NCBI RefSeq assembly: GCF_000633635.1 | Contig: NZ_AYPQ01000006.1 | Coordinates: forward strand, 141,458-205,457 | Length of the DNA: 64,000 nt | Origin: Enterococcus crotali | GTDB lineage: Bacteria; Bacillota; Bacilli; Lactobacillales; Enterococcaceae | Direction: 5' to 3' | Part shown: positions 14,230 through 50,706 of the stretch, in pieces | Position numbering within the stretch: the stretch's first letter is position 1 | Layout: each line of letters opens with the position of its first letter | Made by a program: the position numbers and the translations under genes | Notes under the pieces: model-generated | Told to the model about the DNA's origin: nothing | Database searches by the model: none | What the model saw: the letters and a program-made list of their open reading frames with translations, nothing else

Positions 14230-14400
14230 CCTCCTGATTATTGATGGAGAAGTTTATTTGCGATTAAAACAAAATAAACTCCATGCCACCGTTGACATAG
14301 AGGGACGTAATTGTATGTATCAACAATTGTCCTCGGTAGGAAATTAAGACTTGCGTCACCTACTGTCTTCGGTACAGTTAATTATTAACCTCAACTACCT
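14230..14400 (-). promoter_or_regulatory. L10 leader (autoregulatory RNA)
   Basis: The rplA-rplJ gap holds paired segments on the minus strand: GACAGTAGGTGACGC with its partner in TTCCTACCGAGGAC, and the invariant-looking TGTCAACGGTGGCATGG near the 3' side. This matches the L10 leader of Firmicutes, where L10-L12 binds its own mRNA to reduce rplJL expression. Boundaries are approximate. Confidence 0.8.
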
Positions 14401-17778: not shown

Positions 17779-20700
17779 TTATTGTCTATAGCCAATTTTG
17801 ACTGTCAGCAAACTTACGGCTGTAATTAAAATCATGATTCCTAATAGCCAAACTAATGTGTTCATTGTTTCACCAGTACGTGGCAATTGCTGCTCTTTGT
17901 TGGAACTGTGCATGTTTTTATTAGGGTTAGATAATTTTTCTTTTGCAACAGGATCATTTTTAGTAGAATCGGTTTTCTTGTTTGGTTCAATGACAGACAT
18001 AGATTCTTTTTTGCTATTGAATACTGTTACTTCTGTTGTTTCGTTATATTTAACTTCTAGTTGTACTGACGTTTTTTCTAATTGGTAATCCGTTGGCGCT
18101 TTTGTTTCGATCAATCGATACCTTCCAATAGGTAAATGTGAGACTTCGATGATTCCTTCTTCGTTAGTCGTTAAATCACTTTTGACTACTTCTCCTGCCT
18201 CATTTTGCAAATCGAATACAGCATCTTGTAATACTTCTTGGGTTTCTTTATCTTTCTTAATCACTTTGAGGAATCCAAATTGTTTACTTGGTGACAGTTC
18301 TGTCTCTGAAATTGCTTTACTATTAAAGACTGTGATTTCAGTTGTTTCATTATATTTAACTGTTACATCTACTGCTGCTTTTTCTACTTGATAATTTTTT
18401 GGTGCTTTGGTTTCGATCAATTCATAACTTCCAATTGGTAAATGAGCGACTTCTATGATTCCTTTTTCATTCGTTGTTAAATCACTTTTTACCACTTCTC
18501 CAGCTTCGTTTTTCAAGTCGAAAACTGCGCCCTCTAGTACTTGTTGATTTTCTTGATCTTTTTTGATGACTTTAAGCGAGCCAAATTGCTCACTTGGCAA
18601 CAGTTCTGTTGCTAAGATTTCCTTACTATTAAAGACTGTGATTTCAGTTGTTTCATTGAACTTAACCGTTACTTGGATAGGAGCTTTTTCTATTTGATAA
18701 TTTTTTGGTGCTTTGGTTTCGATCAATTCATAGCTTCCGATTGGTAAATGAGCGACTTCGATGATTCCTTTTTCATTCGTTGTTAAATCACTTTTTACCA
18801 CTTCTCCAGCTTCATTTTTCAGGTCAAAAACTGCACCTTCTAGTACTTGTTGATTTTCTTGATCCTTTTTGATGACTTTAAGTGCTCCAAATTGCTCACT
18901 TGGCAACAGTTCTGTATCTGGAATTTCCTTACTGTTGAAGACTGTGATTTCAGTTGTTTCGTTAAACTTAACTGTCACATGAATCGGTGTTTTTTCAATT
19001 CTATGTGCTTTAGGCGCTTTTACTTCTACTAGTTCATATTCACCAACAGCCAAATGAGAGACACTGATTATCCCTTGTTCATTCGTTGTTAAATCATCTT
19101 CTACAACTTCTCCAGATGCATTTTTCAACTCAAAAACTGCGCCCTTAAGCACACGTAAATCTTCTCGATCTTTCTTGATAACTTTGATTGCACCAAAATG
19201 TTCACTAGGCTGCAATTCTGATTCTGAAAGCTCTTTATTATTTAAAACAGTTACTTCAACCGTTTCATTAAACTGAACATTCACTTGGATAGACTTCGTG
19301 TCTAATTGGTAGCCCTTTGGTGCTTTTGTTTCTATTATTTGATACGTTCCAATAGGTAGATGTGCTACTTCAATTATCCCTTGATCGTTAGTCGTTAGAC
19401 CACTTTCAACAGTTTCGCCAGCCTCATTCTTCAGCTCAAAAACAGCATCTTTCAATACCTGATTATTTTCAGAATCTTTTTTGATGATTTTGAGTCCACC
19501 AAATTGTTTCGCTGGTTCTAATGGTCGTAATGGTTGTTCCGGTGTATTTTCAAGTGTAATAAATGCGGTATTGTTTGTTTCTTTATTTTTTTCTAGTGTT
19601 ACTTTGACCGGTGTAGGATCTAATTCAAAGCCAACTGGTGCTTTTGTTTCTTGCAAGATATATTCACCAAATTCAATTTTCTGAGAAGTTGCTTTCCCTA
19701 ATTCGTCTGTGACTAATTGTTCAATCACACTATTATCCTTAGGATCGATCAGGTCAAATATAGCGCCTTCCAATAGTTGAGTACTATCTTCGCTGCTTAC
19801 CTTTTGCAATTCTATTTTACCAACCGTAGACCCTTCGATCCAAGAACCCACATTGATGTTTTCGACTTCTTTACTCACTGTTTGTGTCTCATAATCTTTG
19901 TCACGTAATCGATATTCAGCTGTTGCATCATTTGTGAAAAATTCTACATCATTATTGATGATTTGAGTTTTATAGAGAATACGCATAGAGGTTTCAGATC
20001 CATCTGAGTAAGGTAAAACAACTTCAATTTTACCAGTGTTAACATCATAATCGAAAATCGCACCTGAATGTTCACTCAAAAATTGCTCAATTCCTGAAAG
20101 ACCAATGTAATCTTTATTTTCTCGGCCAGCTAAGATAATTCTAAAGCTTTCAGGGATCAATTGGTGGTCTGTAGGAACATTTCTGATCTGATCGATGATT
20201 GAAATTTTTCCATCTAATACATCTCTTTCTAAGTTTGCACTAACATCCCATGAAATTTGTTCAGGATTTTCAGGATGAATCACTCCGGATTTAACCAAAA
20301 ACGGATATTCTGATCCTGAAGATCCATGTCCTGCAGTATGAACATTTACGCCAGTCTGAATTTGTCCGCCATTTATGTAAATCGTTTCAGTAGACTCTTG
20401 TGAATTATCATTGTGTACAACTGCCTCAAAATTAAAACCACCCTTGATATTCTCGATATTTTCTATGTTTTCATTGAAAGTAGCTACCGCTCCATCCGTT
20501 GTTATATGTACCGTTCCTACGTTAACGCCATCTATTGTTAAATAGAACGTTTTTTCATACCCCTCCAAAATAGTCAGGCCAACCTGGGGCCAAGATAAAG
20601 TAAGATAATCCCCATTTTTAATATCACCGGCTGAATTATCAAATGCTACTTCAATACTTATTTGATCTCCGGTTTCTGCTTGCATTGGATCAATACTGAT

Positions 20701-44388: not shown

Positions 44389-45471
44389 TTAATAACTGCG
44401 AAGCTTTTCTACTGTTTCTTGGTCTAATCGCTTCACAACTTCTGTCACTAATTTGACAGTGTTTAAATAATCATCTTCATGGATCATGGATGTGTGAGAA
44501 TGTAAATAACGAACTGGAACTGTAATAGCTAATGATGGTACACCATTTCTAGTTAGATGCATTCTGCCAGCGTCCGTTCCACCACCTGTGATTACTGTAT
44601 ATTGGAAAGGAATATTATTTTCTTCCGCCACTTGGATCACAAAATCACGTAATTTTTTGTGCGGAATCATCGACGCATCGAAAATCAAGATCTGTGGCCC
44701 CTTACCTAATTCAGAATCAGCCTCTTTAGGCGTCATACCTGGCGTATCTCCTGCTGTGCCAGTATCAAGTGCAAAGGCAATATCTGGATCAACTAAATGT
44801 GTACTTGTCTGTGCACCACGCAAGCCAACTTCTTCTTGGACATCGCTTCCGGCAAACAAAATATTTGGATGTCCCTCAGCTGCTAAGTTTTCCAAAACTC
44901 TTAAAGACACAGCTGTTCCAATGCGATTATCCCAAGCTTTTGCCAACATAAACTTAGTATCATTCATCCGGCGGTATTCAATATAAGGCGTGATCATGTC
45001 ACCTGGCTTAATGCCCCATTCCGCTACTTGTTTCTCACTTGATGCACCAATATCAATAAACATATCGGCCACATCGTATGGTTGCTTTCTAGCTTCTGCC
45101 GTTAAAACATGTGGTGGTTTTGAACCAATCACACCATGAAATAAATCCCCTTTACTTGTTTTGATTTGAACTTGCTGCGCTAGCATGACTTGTCCCCACC
45201 AGCCGCCAAGTGTTTGAAATTTAATAAACCCTTTTTCTGTGATTTGCGTCACCATAAAACCAACTTCATCTAAATGCCCTGAGAAGAAAATTTTTGGCCC
45301 TTCTTTATCACCAACACGCTTAGCGATGATACTGCCTAACCCGTCGTACATGATCTTATCTGCAAAAGGTGCTGCATATTTTTTGAATATCTCTCTGACT
45401 TCCCCCTCATTGCCGGGTACTCCCTTAGCATTGGTTAAGTCTATTAATAAACGTTCTTCTTTTTGATCCAA
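44389..45471 (-). CDS. M42 family metallo-aminopeptidase (glutamyl aminopeptidase type)
   Basis: A 360-residue cytosolic aminopeptidase of the PepA/FrvX type. Metal-binding segments are [31 protein letters not shown] and the late [14 protein letters not shown]. It trims N-terminal residues from peptides. The frame is open to 45561, but AGGAGGG stands at the right distance before a TTG at 45471 that gives MDQKEERLL, the normal family N-terminus. The upstream 90 bases are part of the repeat-bearing DNA. Confidence 0.9.
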
Positions 45472-45490
45472 AATATTCCCTCCTAAATTT

Positions 45491-46203
45491 AAAAGCTGAA
45501 AGAGCTCGTTTAGCTCCGAAAGAAAAATAGGAAAATAGAAGAGTGGCGCTATTTGCCACAATTCTAGTTTATCTTTTTTCCGAGGAGCTAGCTCTTGAAG
45601 CTAGACAATAATAAAAGCTGAAAGAGCTCATTTAGCCTTGACAGGAAAATAGGAAAAATTGACTGAGGTGCTTCTTACCTCATTCCATTTTTATCTTTTT
45701 ACCGAAAGGCTAGCTCTTAAAGCTAGACAATAATTAAAAGCTGAAAGAGCTCGCTTAGCTCCGAAAGAAAAATAGGAAAATAGAAGAGTGGCGCTATTTG
45801 CCACAATTCTAGTTTATCTTTTTTCCGAGGAGCTAGCTCTTGAAGCTAGACAATAATAAAAGCTGAAAGAGCTCATTTAGCCTTGACAGGAAAATAGAAA
45901 AAATTGACTGAGGTGCTTTTTGCCTCATTCCATTTTTATCTTTTTACCGAAAGGCTAGCTCTTGAAGCTAGACAATAATAAAGGCTGAAAGAGCTCATTT
46001 AGCTCCAAAAGAAAAATAGGAAAATAGAAGAGTGGCGCTATTTGCCACAATTCTAGTTTATCTTTTTACCGAGGAGCTAGCTCTTGAAGCTAGACAATAA
46101 TTAAAAGCTGAAAGAGCTCATTTAGCTCCGAAAGAAAAATAGGAAAATAGGAAAGTGGCGTTATTTGCCACAATTCTAGTTTATCTTTTTACCGAAGCTA
46201 GCC
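45491..46203. repeat. Array of six structured repeats of about 122 bp (types A-B-A-B-A-A)
   Basis: Units start at 45491, 45613, 45736, 45858, 45980 and 46103; the last is truncated. Each begins AAAAGCTGAAAGAGCT and ends with GCTAGACAATAAT. Type A pairs TAGCTCC with GGAGCTA; type B pairs TAGCCTT with AAGGCTA. The inner hairpin is GTGGC/GCCAC in A and GAGGT/ACCTC in B, with a GU variant (GAGGT/GCCTC) in the fourth unit. Both arms have changed together, so a folded form is conserved. Units 1-2 and 3-4 are a near-identical 245-bp duplication. No coding frame is conserved. This fills the gap between the peptidase and the large LPxTG gene. Confidence 0.9.
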
Positions 46204-46289
46204 AATTAAGTAACTAAATTATCATTAATCGTATTATATCACTTCTTAACGCTGTTGAAAAATCAACTGTATACTAAAACATACAAAAC

Positions 46290-46336
46290 AAAAAGTGATA
46301 GAAGGCCCATCAAATGAGCTTTTTCTATCACTTTTT
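46290..46336 (-). terminator. Terminator of the large LPxTG gene
   Basis: A 14-bp stem (AAAAAGTGATAGAA at 46290-46303 with its complement at 46323-46336), just after the stop codon on the minus strand. Confidence 0.8.
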
Positions 46337-46350
46337 CATTTTTTAAGAAG

Positions 46351-49300
46351 TTATCCTTTACCTATTTGTTTTTTTCTAAAGTAATAGATAATATAATAGC
46401 CCAGTAGGCTGATAATCAAACTATTCCCTAAAACAGTGTACCAATTTTCAGACTGTTCATTTGTACTTGGTAGTTTTTTCTTCACAGCTGCAGATGTCTT
46501 TGCAAAATTAGTATCCTTCGTTTTGGCTGTAGTTTTTTCTTCTGGTACTTTTGGTTTTTCTTTTGGCACTGTTGGAGTAATAATAGAAGAGTCTAGTTCT
46601 TTTTCATAGACATAGATTATTTTTTGCGGTGCCTCTGTAAACATGACTTCATCTGCTCCAACTAGTTGATCCATTCTACTTCTTACTTGAGCTGTTGGTT
46701 TTTGAACTTCTTTAAAACGGTAGCCCTTGATTTCTTTTGGATTGACTGTTTGTTTTGTGCCAACTCTTTCTGTTAGTTCATAATCCTTGTCGATTTGGTT
46801 GCCTTGTGTATCCACATGGTGGAATAGAATTTTTCCTACTTTATGTTCGTTCTCTACAGTCACTTCGACATTCAACTGTTCTGACTTGAGCGTAATCTCT
46901 TGCGTATAGTCTTTCAGATGATAACCAATAGGAGCTTTTGTCTCAGTTAACGTGTACGTATCTAGCGCTAGCCCTTCAAGCTCTGCTATACCGTCCTTAT
47001 CTGTTGTCAATGTGTGTTGAATTGTAGGATCAAGTTTAGATACAAGAGAGAATTCAGCTCCGCTAAGTGCTTGCTTGGTTTCCTGATCGATTTTTTTCAC
47101 ACGAATCGTTCCCGTTAATAATTGATTGACCTTAGTTCCTGTAACGATTGTTTCTGACTCGATCAACTCTTTCGTCAATGTCAATGCAACGGGTTCTTTA
47201 TCTAATTTGTAACCGCTAGGGGCTTCTATTTCTGTAAAGACATATTCACCCTCTGTCAGGTCGGAAACTGTGATCAAGCCTTGCTCATTTGAATTGAATA
47301 TGTGAGCTGATTTTTGATCCTCCGTCCAACTTGACTGTCCTTGTTCATCTATCTGGTAGTATTCTGTTTTTTCCTGATTACTGAGTGATAAATGAAACTG
47401 AGCACCTGGCAAAGCATTCCCTTGAGGATCTTCTTTTTTCAGCTCTACGGTTCCTGTGGTGATGATTGGTTCGTTTTCAACGATCGTTACATACGTTGGA
47501 TCATCCATATCCTCATCTGATTTTGTTGATAAAAGTACTCCTTTTTGATACTCGTCAGATAATTTATACCCTTCAGGCGCTGTAATTTCTTTGATTAAAT
47601 ACTCACCTTCAGCTACTGATTTAAAGGTGGCATTTCCTTCTTGATCAGATGTGACCTTTAGTCCTAATGATTGCTTGCTTTCTTTATCAAATAGTTCGAA
47701 AACGGCTCCCATTAAAGGTTCTTGTGTACGTGCATCAACTTTTTTCAACGGAATCTGTCCGACGCCTTTTCCAGAACCAGAACCGCTTGTAACCGTATGA
47801 TTTACTGTTGACCAATCTGCCTTGATGGCGTTATTATTTGAAAAAACAGCTGTATTAAGCACATTTGCTGATTTCGTTGTAACGGTTTGATACTCTACAG
47901 AAACGCCTCGCGTTTCCTTTTTGAAAGTGATTTTAAAATAATTCGTCTCATAATTTTTCAAAAGAGATCCTGCTGGGCTTTGATCTGGATCATAAGTAAA
48001 GCTGATCTCATAATCTTCACCTAGACTAAGAATTTTATTTGTGGTTAAGTCCCTAACCACAAAAGCATCCGTTCCAATTACAAAGTTCGTATTTTCAGCT
48101 TTCGATGCATCACTTAGTGTGAAACTATCCTCTAAAACTAAGTTTTTATATGGACGATTTGCTGGCATTGTATTCGTTTGAACATACCAATTAGCAAGTT
48201 TATTATCTGCTGTTGAAACTCTTCCCACTTTATACGTATTGATTCCCAAAGCGACCGTTTCTTCAGCTTTAAGTTCATGTTGGTAGTCCTTTTCATCGCT
48301 GATTTTGGCGATATTCGTAAATTTAGTGTAGTAATCAGAAACAGGAGCAGTAGTTGGTGCTGTTTTATAGCGAATGGCTACTTTCTTGTTCCCGATAGAT
48401 GAAAACTCTAAATGAATATGATTGTCTTCGATTTCCATAACAGTAGGATATCGGGCATCTCCTGGTTGGATCGCCTCACCTGTCAAAACTACTTCCTTAC
48501 CATTTTCATTGACAATTTTGTCTAGTTCAAGAATTTCAATTGAGTTTTTATCTAGTTTTTGAATCGACTCGATTTCATCATCCAAGATCAGATTTTTATA
48601 TTTATGACGTTCTTCATTGATGCCGATTGTCCAAGTAAATAGGCCAGTCGTATTAGCATACACAACATTTTTCTTACCGCCCCCAACTAAAAAGCTAGGA
48701 ATATTAAATGTCGCTGAGGCTTCCATCGGAATAGTGCCATTGCCTGCAAGAGAGACTTTATTACTCAGTTCGTCGCCTACTTTAATGTCTGTATTGTCAA
48801 ACTTACTTGTATACGTCAAAACATATTTATTCGTTGTAATGCCGCTATGAATACCTAACATATCCACCGTAAAGCCAGCGCTTGTTTTTTTGATCGTATA
48901 ATCTTGTCCGACAACTAATGGGTGCTTCGTTTTGTCATCCCCTTTAGCATAGTAATAAAAATCAGCAGAACCATCTACTAACTCTTTTACTCGTTCGCCA
49001 AACTCATCGATCATTTGATTGAACTGCATTCCCCAATGTTTATTATTGACAATGATCGACCAATCTACTGTACCAGCTGTCATGTCTAAAGAATCTTCTT
49101 CTAGTATTTTAGAAATATTAGATGGCGCCAGATTGATTTTTGCCTCATCGCTGCCTAAGGTATCTGAAGCCTGATTTTCGATCACACGCGGGCTAGGGTT
49201 TTGAACTGCGGTTTCATAGACAAATCGATAAGCCTGAGTTGGTGAGTTACTTTGATTATTGGTATATGTGTAATCTGTTGTATATTGCCCAAAACCACTT

Positions 49301-50706
49301 GTATCCCAATGACTTGTCGGTGCAAATCCACCTTGGCTGATCGAGTCAGTTCCATAAACATATAGATAGTAGATTTTTAAATTTGAAAACGTTAAATCAT
49401 TCGCAACTTCATCCTTGAGGATATCTGTAAATTTAGTCCCTTGGGTCAGCTCTGTACTGTCCAAATTATAATCGATCGTCCAAACGATTGTGTTCGTTTT
49501 AACGTTATACTCCCCTTTTTTCGTTATGTGAGGATTATGATTATATTGAAAATAAACATAGCTCGAAAGGTATTTCCCATAAACAGTCGCCTCTGTTCTC
49601 AGATTGGACAACTCTTCATTAACGATCGAATTCTCGTTGATAACTGAATCATACGTAAGAATCACAGCTTTATTTGTTTCTTTGTTTAAGATCACTTCCA
49701 AATTAGCACCATTTTGTTGAAGTGTGTACTCGCCATTTCCTAACAAAACGGGTTCACCGATCAACTTGCCCCCCATCGAAACATCTTGTTCAAAAACTTT
49801 CAGATTTTCGATATTGATATAAGCTGATGCATCCTCAATTTGGTTTGGACTTTTTTTATTGACTGTGTTTTTAACCACTATTTTTTGATTTGGCTGAATG
49901 GTTTCTCGATTGATATTCGTCTTTATTTCTGTCGACACAAGATCTGTATTAAAGTTTTTATTTTTATTCAGACTAACGCTTCCTTCGCCTGAAAGTTTAA
50001 ATAAAATATCGTATTGTTTTTCCTGGTTATTTGCTAAAGGGAAAACAATCGTTTTAAGTAAGTCACTATCATCGCTATATGGAATGAAGCTTGTTTCAAT
50101 ATCGATTTGATATTTTCCATTGACTACGGTTTCATTAAATACGATGGTAAGTTTTCCGGTTGTGTCGATAGTCCAGCTTCCGACGGTCGCTAATTTTCCG
50201 GATATGTTGTTAGAAATCGCAATATCTGCTGGCAATTGATAGTCGTATGTTCCAGCTTGAATTGTTTGATTTTCTGTTCCAACCTGTAATGTTACTTTCA
50301 ATGGTGCTTGTCTTTGAGGACGGTTGGTCGTTGTGTTGAACTCTTCTCCTTTAGAATCGGTCAACGTAACGTTTGATATTAGGTTTTCTGTTTGTTGTAC
50401 TTTTGCTTGTCTTGATTCAATTTCAACTTCACTAGCTGACGTCTCTAGAACTTCTTCGTTTGAAGAGTTTTCTACCTTCTCTGGTTGTTCACCTAATGTA
50501 TCACTTGTCGAAGTTTCTGTCGTACTAAGGATTTCTGAGCTTTCCAAAGAACTTTCTTTGTTCGATACATCACTTGTTGTTTCATTAGCTGGCGTTTCAA
50601 GAGTTTCTTCTGGTGCGAATGTTTCAGCAAAACTAACAACAGGAATCAAAGAATTGGCAATCAACATCAGGATCACCATCACTATCCAAAATTTCTGTTT
50701 TTTCAT
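46351..50706 (-). CDS. Large LPxTG-type adhesin with SpaA and MucBP domains
   Basis: A 1451-residue surface protein. The order is signal peptide (1-28, ending SFAET); Ser/Thr/Glu-rich stretch (about 30-105); a long series of Ig-like adhesin domains (about 110-1010); three SpaA/Cna-B domains (starting QIPLKKVDARTQ, TVELKKEDPQG and TIRVKKIDQETK); a MucBP domain (GKILFHHVDTQGNQIDKDYE); a Pro/Lys linker; and LPSTNE (about 1412), a hydrophobic helix and KKQIGKG. It is sortase-anchored to the wall. SpaA domains act as rigid stalks and MucBP domains can bind mucin, so a host-surface adhesin is likely. No regulator gene adjoins it. Confidence 0.9.
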   Translation of the reverse strand: MKKQKFWIVMVILMLIANSLIPVVSFAETFAPEETLETPANETTSDVSNKESSLESSEILSTTETSTSDTLGEQPEKVENSSNEEVLETSASEVEIESRQAKVQQTENLISNVTLTDSKGEEFNTTTNRPQRQAPLKVTLQVGTENQTIQAGTYDYQLPADIAISNNISGKLATVGSWTIDTTGKLTIVFNETVVNGKYQIDIETSFIPYSDDSDLLKTIVFPLANNQEKQYDILFKLSGEGSVSLNKNKNFNTDLVSTEIKTNINRETIQPNQKIVVKNTVNKKSPNQIEDASAYINIENLKVFEQDVSMGGKLIGEPVLLGNGEYTLQQNGANLEVILNKETNKAVILTYDSVINENSIVNEELSNLRTEATVYGKYLSSYVYFQYNHNPHITKKGEYNVKTNTIVWTIDYNLDSTELTQGTKFTDILKDEVANDLTFSNLKIYYLYVYGTDSISQGGFAPTSHWDTSGFGQYTTDYTYTNNQSNSPTQAYRFVYETAVQNPSPRVIENQASDTLGSDEAKINLAPSNISKILEEDSLDMTAGTVDWSIIVNNKHWGMQFNQMIDEFGERVKELVDGSADFYYYAKGDDKTKHPLVVGQDYTIKKTSAGFTVDMLGIHSGITTNKYVLTYTSKFDNTDIKVGDELSNKVSLAGNGTIPMEASATFNIPSFLVGGGKKNVVYANTTGLFTWTIGINEERHKYKNLILDDEIESIQKLDKNSIEILELDKIVNENGKEVVLTGEAIQPGDARYPTVMEIEDNHIHLEFSSIGNKKVAIRYKTAPTTAPVSDYYTKFTNIAKISDEKDYQHELKAEETVALGINTYKVGRVSTADNKLANWYVQTNTMPANRPYKNLVLEDSFTLSDASKAENTNFVIGTDAFVVRDLTTNKILSLGEDYEISFTYDPDQSPAGSLLKNYETNYFKITFKKETRGVSVEYQTVTTKSANVLNTAVFSNNNAIKADWSTVNHTVTSGSGSGKGVGQIPLKKVDARTQEPLMGAVFELFDKESKQSLGLKVTSDQEGNATFKSVAEGEYLIKEITAPEGYKLSDEYQKGVLLSTKSDEDMDDPTYVTIVENEPIITTGTVELKKEDPQGNALPGAQFHLSLSNQEKTEYYQIDEQGQSSWTEDQKSAHIFNSNEQGLITVSDLTEGEYVFTEIEAPSGYKLDKEPVALTLTKELIESETIVTGTKVNQLLTGTIRVKKIDQETKQALSGAEFSLVSKLDPTIQHTLTTDKDGIAELEGLALDTYTLTETKAPIGYHLKDYTQEITLKSEQLNVEVTVENEHKVGKILFHHVDTQGNQIDKDYELTERVGTKQTVNPKEIKGYRFKEVQKPTAQVRSRMDQLVGADEVMFTEAPQKIIYVYEKELDSSIITPTVPKEKPKVPEEKTTAKTKDTNFAKTSAAVKKKLPSTNEQSENWYTVLGNSLIISLLGYYIIYYFRKKQIGKG

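Follow-up and report, generated by a model that had tools for sequence, protein, structure and literature searches.

A six-unit array in the chromosome of Enterococcus crotali is best explained as the tandem expansion of a dispersed, noncoding palindromic repeat of the BOX/MITE-like kind, which spreads in Enterococcus chromosomes, mostly immediately 5' of Shine-Dalgarno (SD) sequences and in one orientation. We assign this reading a probability of about 0.6. The repeat forms a family of structured units that are dispersed singly or in tandem arrays, share their orientation, lie adjacent to SD sequences, and are present at a given site in some species and absent from it in others. The array was found in a stretch of 64,000 nucleotides, positions 141,458 to 205,457 of contig NZ_AYPQ01000006.1, which we refer to as the window.

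RESULTS

The array consists of six tandem units with paired arm changes

Tandem Repeats Finder reported a repeat at window positions 45490-46202 with a period of 122 and 5.8 copies. We place the array at 45492-46203 on the minus strand, where it comprises five full units (122-123 bp) and a truncated one, in the order A-B-A-B-A-A. The SD-proximal copy is unit 1 (type A, 45492-45613), which scores 139.6 bits with the covariance model described below. It is followed on the same strand by unit 2 (type B, 45614-45736), unit 3 (type A, 45737-45858), which has 99% identity with unit 1, unit 4 (type B, 45859-45980; 138.4 bits), which bears a G.U variant, and unit 5 (type A, 45981-46103); units 2, 3, and 5 were assigned by unit comparison and the covariance model. 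The distal, A-type unit 6 (46104-46203; 91 bits) is truncated to 100 nt and lacks the outer stem. Identity is 95-99% among the A units 1, 3, and 5, 96% between the B units, and 76-79% between A and B, and the differences between A and B fall at paired positions.

A preliminary description of this DNA had claimed six tandem repeats with paired arm changes. Both Tandem Repeats Finder and the unit comparison bear this out; the order of the types also holds, with the sixth unit being truncated, and the arms on which the claim was based (TAGCTCC/GGAGCTA versus TAGCCTT/AAGGCTA, GTGGC/GCCAC versus GAGGT/ACCTC, and one G.U variant) are all present in the sequence. Compared with dinucleotide shuffles, the fold of unit 1 has a z score of -5.4 on the gene strand and -5.1 on the other strand, and that of unit 2 has -3.2 and -5.7, respectively. 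The 713 bp had been described as noncoding, and indeed no open reading frame of at least 60 amino acids was found in them, apart from the stretch by which the peptidase frame extends mechanically upstream. At the gathering score, Rfam 15 did not match the array; its sole match in the window is an L10 leader elsewhere (14263-14390, minus strand), the family of which served as our RNA control. A relaxed Rfam search of the array yielded weak sub-threshold matches only.

Other repeats were also seen in the window: a CRISPR-like array at 2376-2881 (repeat TTTCAATCCACTAGCTCTAAACAGAGCTAGAC, period about 68) and large tandem repeats of 306 bp (18014-19278) and 243 bp (1-686), which are perhaps coding repeats of surface proteins.

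The array lies in the predicted 5' UTR of an M42 peptidase gene

In agreement with the preliminary description, the array is located between a peptidase gene and an adhesin gene. The downstream gene (44389-45471, minus strand) has a TTG start and belongs to the M42 glutamyl aminopeptidase family (PF05343, E = 7e-107); against TIGR03107 it scores 303.8 bits, under the cutoff of 469.7. The upstream gene (46351-50706, minus strand) encodes a surface adhesin in which the domain search found SpaA, collagen-binding, and MucBP domains. On the minus strand, the end of the adhesin gene is followed by an inverted repeat (46285-46341), which was found by an inverted-repeat search and is probably the terminator of this gene, then by a predicted extended -10 element, TGATATAAT (46233-46241, minus strand, recognized by eye), by the array, by the SD sequence AGGAGGG directly 3' of it (45478-45484, minus strand), and by the TTG of the peptidase gene. 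Given this order of signals, the array would form about 750 nt of the predicted 5' UTR of the M42 peptidase gene.

Among 22 Enterococcus genomes, nine carry units or a stub at the peptidase site and 13 do not. By eye, the predicted extended -10 element is TGATATAAT at eight of the nine loci with units or a stub and TGTTATAAT at the ninth (L245), and the 13 array-free sites have a TATAAT roughly 20-25 nt before the SD. The adhesin gene is located upstream at all eight loci with full units and at one of the 13 loci without units (L258); the locus with a 3' stub only, L255, has no adhesin match. Since the adhesin gene tracks full units, with L258 and L255 as exceptions, the peptidase site cannot be read as a clean insertion. 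The gene is also not exclusive to array-bearing genomes, as L258 has it without units.

The repeat is dispersed in the genome, the genus, and the order

A single unit used as blast query gave 75 matches in the own genome, and a covariance model built from 53 own-genome copies gave at least 138 at E ≤ 0.001. These matches group into 90 arrays: 58 single, 20 double, and 10 triple, one with four units, and the one with six in the window. The repeat periods within the arrays are 114-123, and the unit length of the family is about 116-122 nt.

The covariance search of enterococcal genomes that had been suggested in the preliminary description was run on a sample of 22 genomes of 3.1 to 4.6 Mb, none of which is as small as that of E. 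faecalis (about 2.9 Mb). All 22 carry the repeat, with 3 to at least 150 matches each. With stricter filters, the repeat was found in at least 54 of 105 genomes of the family and its scaffold in at least 106 of 295 sampled genomes of the order (Lactobacillales), the own genus being included in both counts. The possibility that other genomes hold no copies, which had been named there as part of a refutation, is thereby disposed of, because copies occur in the genus, the family, and the order. Distant copies are diverged in sequence and have the scaffold in common, and tandems of about 122 nt occur again in other genera. An AGAYA motif followed by CCTA is present in 175 of 185 Enterococcus units and in 13 of 20 copies from other genomes.

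Plasmid and phage collections contained no match to the repeat. A pattern scan of IMG/VR found two stretches of one contig; they resemble the own-genome locus C2:617109 and therefore provide no evidence of phage carriage.

Two additional modules were noticed by eye at enterococcal loci. A second repeat module, with the core GTTGAAAAGTACAAGGTGAAGCGGAACGTTGTTACC, lies between units or itself against the SD (L123, L120, L250, and other loci); an example is located before dnaA in Enterococcus sp. DIV0212c, whereas the window array showed none. Some units have a third module, about 60 nt long, inserted in the 5' arm (L034, L036, L244, L250, L251, and L277).

Arrays end at SD sequences in one orientation

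An array was counted as SD class if it had an SD core between 4 nt before and 3 nt past the end of the model, with a same-strand start codon after it. At the gene-sense end, 68 of the 90 own-genome arrays belong to this class, whereas the opposite end, tested in the same way on the other strand reading outward, gave 0 of 90. The SD core was at -2 or -1 from the model end in 56 of the 68 SD-class arrays, and the SD was GGAGG in 62 of them, versus 12 of 38 SD-like starts of window frames. As a null expectation, 2.4% of the position-strand pairs in the intergenic space of the window have an SD and a start codon within 0-9 nt, or about 5% when scaled to the tested range. Against this null, the binomial p for 68/90 is about 1e-67, a value that ignores relatedness and gene-call error. 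In the genus sample, 151 of 209 arrays passed a similar SD test, with some places counted more than once.

A separate listing with other filters contained 67 genes downstream of arrays, 28 of which were scanned. Among these were tsf, hslV, codY, dnaA, serS, argF, map, rplY, clpB, pyrB, nagB, lgt, nfo, trpB, dapA, fabD, ddl, and lpd, together with PTS, ABC-transporter, and amylase genes and a few others. No common pathway was found among the 28. In 22 of 32 multi-copy arrays, the SD-proximal copy outscored the distal one (means, 126.0 versus 103.3 bits; Wilcoxon p = 0.0004, sign test p = 0.05).

The codY site is a cleaner insertion site than the peptidase site. Units are present there in nine of the 22 genus genomes and differ greatly between species, and some other genomes have remnants. 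In six species without the element (L289-L294), the end of the upstream gene, presumably hslU, and the SD of codY are only a few bases apart. Empty sites retain the SD, for example, in the shared sequences AAACGGAGGAATTTCAATG and TTAGGAGGAAAAG; therefore, the SD predates the element.

The pairing is probably maintained at the DNA level in Enterococcus

When the 53 own-genome copies were evaluated with a fixed structure, 95.1% of the cells paired, compared to 83.9% after shuffling, and 203 cells were double changed, compared to 75. None of 500 shuffles reached the observed value for either measure, and in slid controls only 40-60% of the cells paired. Double changes were detected in 15 of 25 pairs. 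The number of further pair types, one of five measures, was not above the shuffles (26 versus 27.1).

A functional RNA tolerates G.U on its own strand but not A.C. The RNA control, L10 leaders from 30 genomes that were aligned and folded in the same way, showed G.U:A.C ratios of 16:0 (raw), 12:0 (95% dereplication), and 2:0 (85%), based on few changes and with only one pair having two Watson-Crick types. On the sense strand of the Enterococcus repeat, the ratio was 48:88 (154 units, 95% dereplication) or 22:35 (68 units, 85%), and on the antisense strand it was 133:50 or 52:23, respectively. An RNAalifold structure on a MAFFT alignment (A1) gave 15:39, while model-fitted alignments, which lean to the sense strand, gave about 1:1 (101:93, 48:54, and 57:50; other genera, 13:8). 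Thus, the excess of G.U over A.C that a cis-regulatory RNA should show on the transcribed strand was not found in Enterococcus (48:88). Since G.U is not favored on the message strand, the pairing in this genus is probably kept at the DNA level, and message-level selection is unlikely to be its keeper. The antisense excess of G.U (133:50) also counts against a simple homogenization of double-stranded DNA, which predicts no strand bias; this bias may reflect a single-stranded form of the DNA, an antisense RNA, or an asymmetry of mutation.

The preliminary description had offered two origins for the paired changes. Copying from diverged, self-complementary parents is supported by the at least 138 copies, by their presence or absence between species, and by tandem growth. 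Selection for folding, if meant as folding of message RNA, is not supported in Enterococcus, given the strand ratio (48:88, versus 12:0 for the control). As this strand test indicates, compensatory changes in repeats can mislead when taken as proof of functional RNA.

In other genera, element ends also lie at stop codons

We inspected 28 loci from 20 chosen genomes; two of the loci (L062 and L099) belong to the own genus. At 10 of the 28 (L075, L077, L078, L079, L082, L086, L087, L095, L096, and L097), a gene on the opposite strand has its stop codon no more than 7 nt from the end of the element. In five of these 10, from other genera, the stop codon is inside the element tail, and the element sometimes supplies the stop. 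At random positions, such adjacency occurs in 4.8%. Because 12 loci were picked for this test post hoc, after opposite-strand genes had been seen nearby, and 10 of the 12 passed, 10/28 is the fair fraction. Three other loci from other genera (L076, L084, and L092) lie against an SD. In the own genome, where the stop-codon test is weak, it was positive for 6 of 67 SD-class arrays and for 6 of the remaining 23, two of the latter six being at SD-like sites. The common theme may be gene edges, not SDs alone.

In Streptococcus, the element directly precedes dnaJ at most loci read

The region upstream of dnaJ was read in 50 of 78 Streptococcus genomes (the 30 with the best matches plus 20 picked among the others; L295-L344). 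The element directly precedes the dnaJ start codon at 45 of the 50 loci and is missing at five. Three diverged variants of one architecture account for 38 loci (17, 12, and 9), and seven more were assigned by the 3' tail motif only, among them L336, which looks degenerate. The strong divergence of the three variants at one site looks as if alleles had been exchanged. S. pneumoniae 19F also has the element at dnaJ (L198).

None of the 45 element-bearing loci has an SD-like motif 5-20 nt before the ATG. In 42 of them, GAAAGGA is found 100-165 nt before the ATG, beyond the far side of the element. The fold of variant 1 could reduce the distance between this upstream SD and the start codon to about 7 nt; in variants 2 and 3, bridging is less clear because the SD stands further from the element. 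The sense-strand G.U:A.C ratios of variants 1, 2, and 3 are 10:1, 2:1, and 1:1, respectively.

A pattern search returned 50 streptococcal copies. For the 44 unique ones, the G.U:A.C ratio was 1:8, or 3:3 after 80% dereplication. By a loose test, in which some hits may be spurious, 27 of the 50 copies have an in-frame start codon 0-15 nt past the element (21 ATG). None of the 27 has an SD between element and start. An SD-like motif stands no more than 45 nt upstream in 20 of them (at 2 nt in 11), although such motifs are common by chance. For genes that follow the element, nine N termini of 60 residues were compared with NCBIfam, which named dnaJ, alaS, purB, two genes of the dihydrolipoamide acyltransferase type, rpsR, rsmH, and rpoB; most matches were under the full-length cutoffs because only fragments were compared. 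The unmatched N terminus we take to be that of rnr. The starts of rsmH and rpoB are 41 and 123 nt off and are therefore near the element, not adjacent to it. At six streptococcal loci, Rfam 15 detected no family at threshold. RNA-level selection on the element directly before the dnaJ start is possible in Streptococcus.

DISCUSSION

Insertion beside SD sequences and tandem growth

If the repeat is a spreading palindromic element, as we favor, new copies would be nonautonomous mobile DNA inserted beside an SD. Arrays would then grow by tandem duplication, as the A-B, A-B pattern suggests, and older copies would be pushed outward, away from the SD, and decay, consistent with the higher score of the proximal copy in 22 of 32 arrays. 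The complementarity of the arms would be maintained at the DNA level, by palindrome correction or a hairpin transposition intermediate. When transcribed, the units would fold into successive strong hairpins along the 5' UTR while the SD stays accessible, and they could alter the stability, processing, or translation of the message, here that of the M42 peptidase. A search for a mobilizing enzyme, which covered the Y1 transposase, found none. As for the marks of a MITE, no parent element came to light, and no clean target-site duplication could be defined at the sites compared, though empty sites were seen. The persistence at dnaJ in most streptococcal loci read, which looks functional, and the link to the adhesin gene at the peptidase site (8/8 versus 1/13) also speak against a mobile palindrome. 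At 68 places in one genome, those before dnaA, tsf, codY, and serS among them, an array stops a few bases from the SD, which implies either target recognition of the ribosome-binding site or strong selection for a leader hairpin.

Alternative explanations

The repeat might instead be a conserved cis-regulatory RNA, a folded leader that acts beside or within the translation-initiation region, governs how a large regulon is translated or degraded, and is under selection as message RNA. Its fixed orientation, its nucleotide-precise placement at the SD, its covarying stems, the occurrence of the scaffold in at least 106 of the 295 genomes sampled from the order, and the conserved order of AGAYA and CCTA (175/185 Enterococcus units, 13/20 copies from other genomes) would all be in line with this. 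The same is true of the streptococcal dnaJ loci, with one architecture in 38 of 50 and the 3' tail in seven more, no near SD in the 45, GAAAGGA beyond the element in 42, and a 10:1 ratio of G.U to A.C on the sense strand of variant 1. However, the Enterococcus sense strand does not favor G.U over A.C, and in Streptococcus the ratios of the other two variants (2:1 and 1:1) and of the pattern copies (1:8; 3:3 dereplicated) show no consistent direction. Furthermore, presence varies by species at codY and at the peptidase gene (9/22 each), the named downstream genes have no common pathway, and other genera have copies at opposite-strand stop codons. We therefore regard a cis-regulatory RNA as possible but rather unlikely.

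A wider proposal, which we hold to be slightly more doubtful still, is that these are order-wide structured elements dedicated to translation-initiation regions. In Streptococcus, they would be fixed between a distant SD and the start of dnaJ and of some core genes (alaS, purB, and rpsR), with initiation depending on the fold; in Enterococcus, they would be mobile and delivered to SD edges by an SD-recognizing mechanism. If true, this would be a transposing translational control element. The scaffold at dnaJ in most Streptococcus loci read, S. pneumoniae included, suggests that a chaperone gene of much-studied bacteria has a structured leader that Rfam 15 lacks.

It is improbable that the array is a precursor of trans-acting small RNAs of about 120 nt. 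The hairpins are stable and self-contained, but the array is unmatched at the Rfam gathering score, with weak sub-threshold matches only, and most arrays lie at an SD and are not free-standing. The anatomy of the locus, a predicted 5' UTR ending at the SD, would not call for a free processed RNA of this size. Mobilization as a REP/BIME-type element by a RAYT (Y1) transposase is more improbable yet. Although the palindromes are dispersed and fixed in orientation, the Y1 domain PF01797 was found in 12 of the 22 genus genomes and is absent from four that are rich in the repeat (G004, G006, G009, and G014; 118 to at least 150 matches). We rejected this candidate since the own genome and nine other genus genomes have no Y1 transposase that the Pfam model recognizes. 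Finally, ordinary tandem-repeat noise or terminator debris, for which one could cite the position downstream of the adhesin gene with its own terminator-like repeat (46285-46341), is refuted by the at least 138 matches genome-wide and by the covariation, and its likelihood is negligible.

Comparison with known systems

Dispersed palindromic repeats are, as a kind, already known. REP/BIME sequences with RAYT transposases are dispersed palindromes with a fixed orientation; in contrast to them, the repeat described here has a longer unit, lies 5' of genes, and occurs in a genome without a Y1 transposase. In phage T4 gene 38, an mRNA hairpin stands between the SD and the start codon of a single phage gene. 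The streptococcal element at dnaJ would work alike, its hairpin bringing a distant SD near the start if bridging takes place as we infer, but here one element family is found at several genes. In the literature covered by our search, which leaves out most subscription journals, the accessible text does not describe this family, its SD placement, its order-wide occurrence, or the streptococcal dnaJ leader (PMC2267715, PMC3049150, PMC6212727, and PMC8546594 included). A text search for the conserved motifs returned one unrelated malaria paper only.

According to the accessible part of its description, the stem-loop repeat Efa-1 of Enterococcus faecalis has a 163-nt model and 65 copies, 18 of them complete (Petrillo et al. 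2008, PMC2267715). Like our repeat, it is intergenic, structured, dispersed, and from the same genus, and its two neighboring stem-loops are what one and a half tandem units might produce. SD placement, tandem arrays, and occurrence outside E. faecalis, which distinguish our repeat, are unmentioned in that part of the text (PMC2267715). Our repeat shares the general traits of Efa-1 (intergenic, stem-loop, enterococcal), and by description, the basis of this comparison, Efa-1 may be the same sequence.

In the accessible text of Croucher et al. (2011, PMC3049150), the SPRITE repeat of S. pneumoniae consists of an 18-bp duplex and a long U-rich tract and is found close to the 3' ends of genes. 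It is likewise a hairpin repeat near genes, but judged by folds and placement against this description, our repeat lacks the SPRITE traits: its stem is longer, it has conserved internal motifs, and it usually runs into an SD. In the same text, the BOX elements of S. pneumoniae and S. suis are short, intergenic, palindromic repeats of modular build, in which inner modules recur, and are judged to be parasitic; some of them supply stop codons (PMC3049150). Our repeat is similarly short, palindromic, intergenic, and modular, and by eye the extra modules beside and inside enterococcal units recall the modular build of BOX. BOX, RUP, and SPRITE, the best-characterized repeats of related bacteria, are reported there as over-represented between convergent genes (PMC3049150), whereas 68 of our 90 arrays are located immediately 5' of an SD; since these 68 have a same-strand start downstream, no more than 22 of the 90 could be placed between convergent genes, and the own-genome arrays do not show this excess. 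Furthermore, BOX-type repeats are described from S. pneumoniae, S. mitis, and S. suis, with other streptococci reported to have almost none (PMC3049150), while the scaffold described here spans several families of the order.
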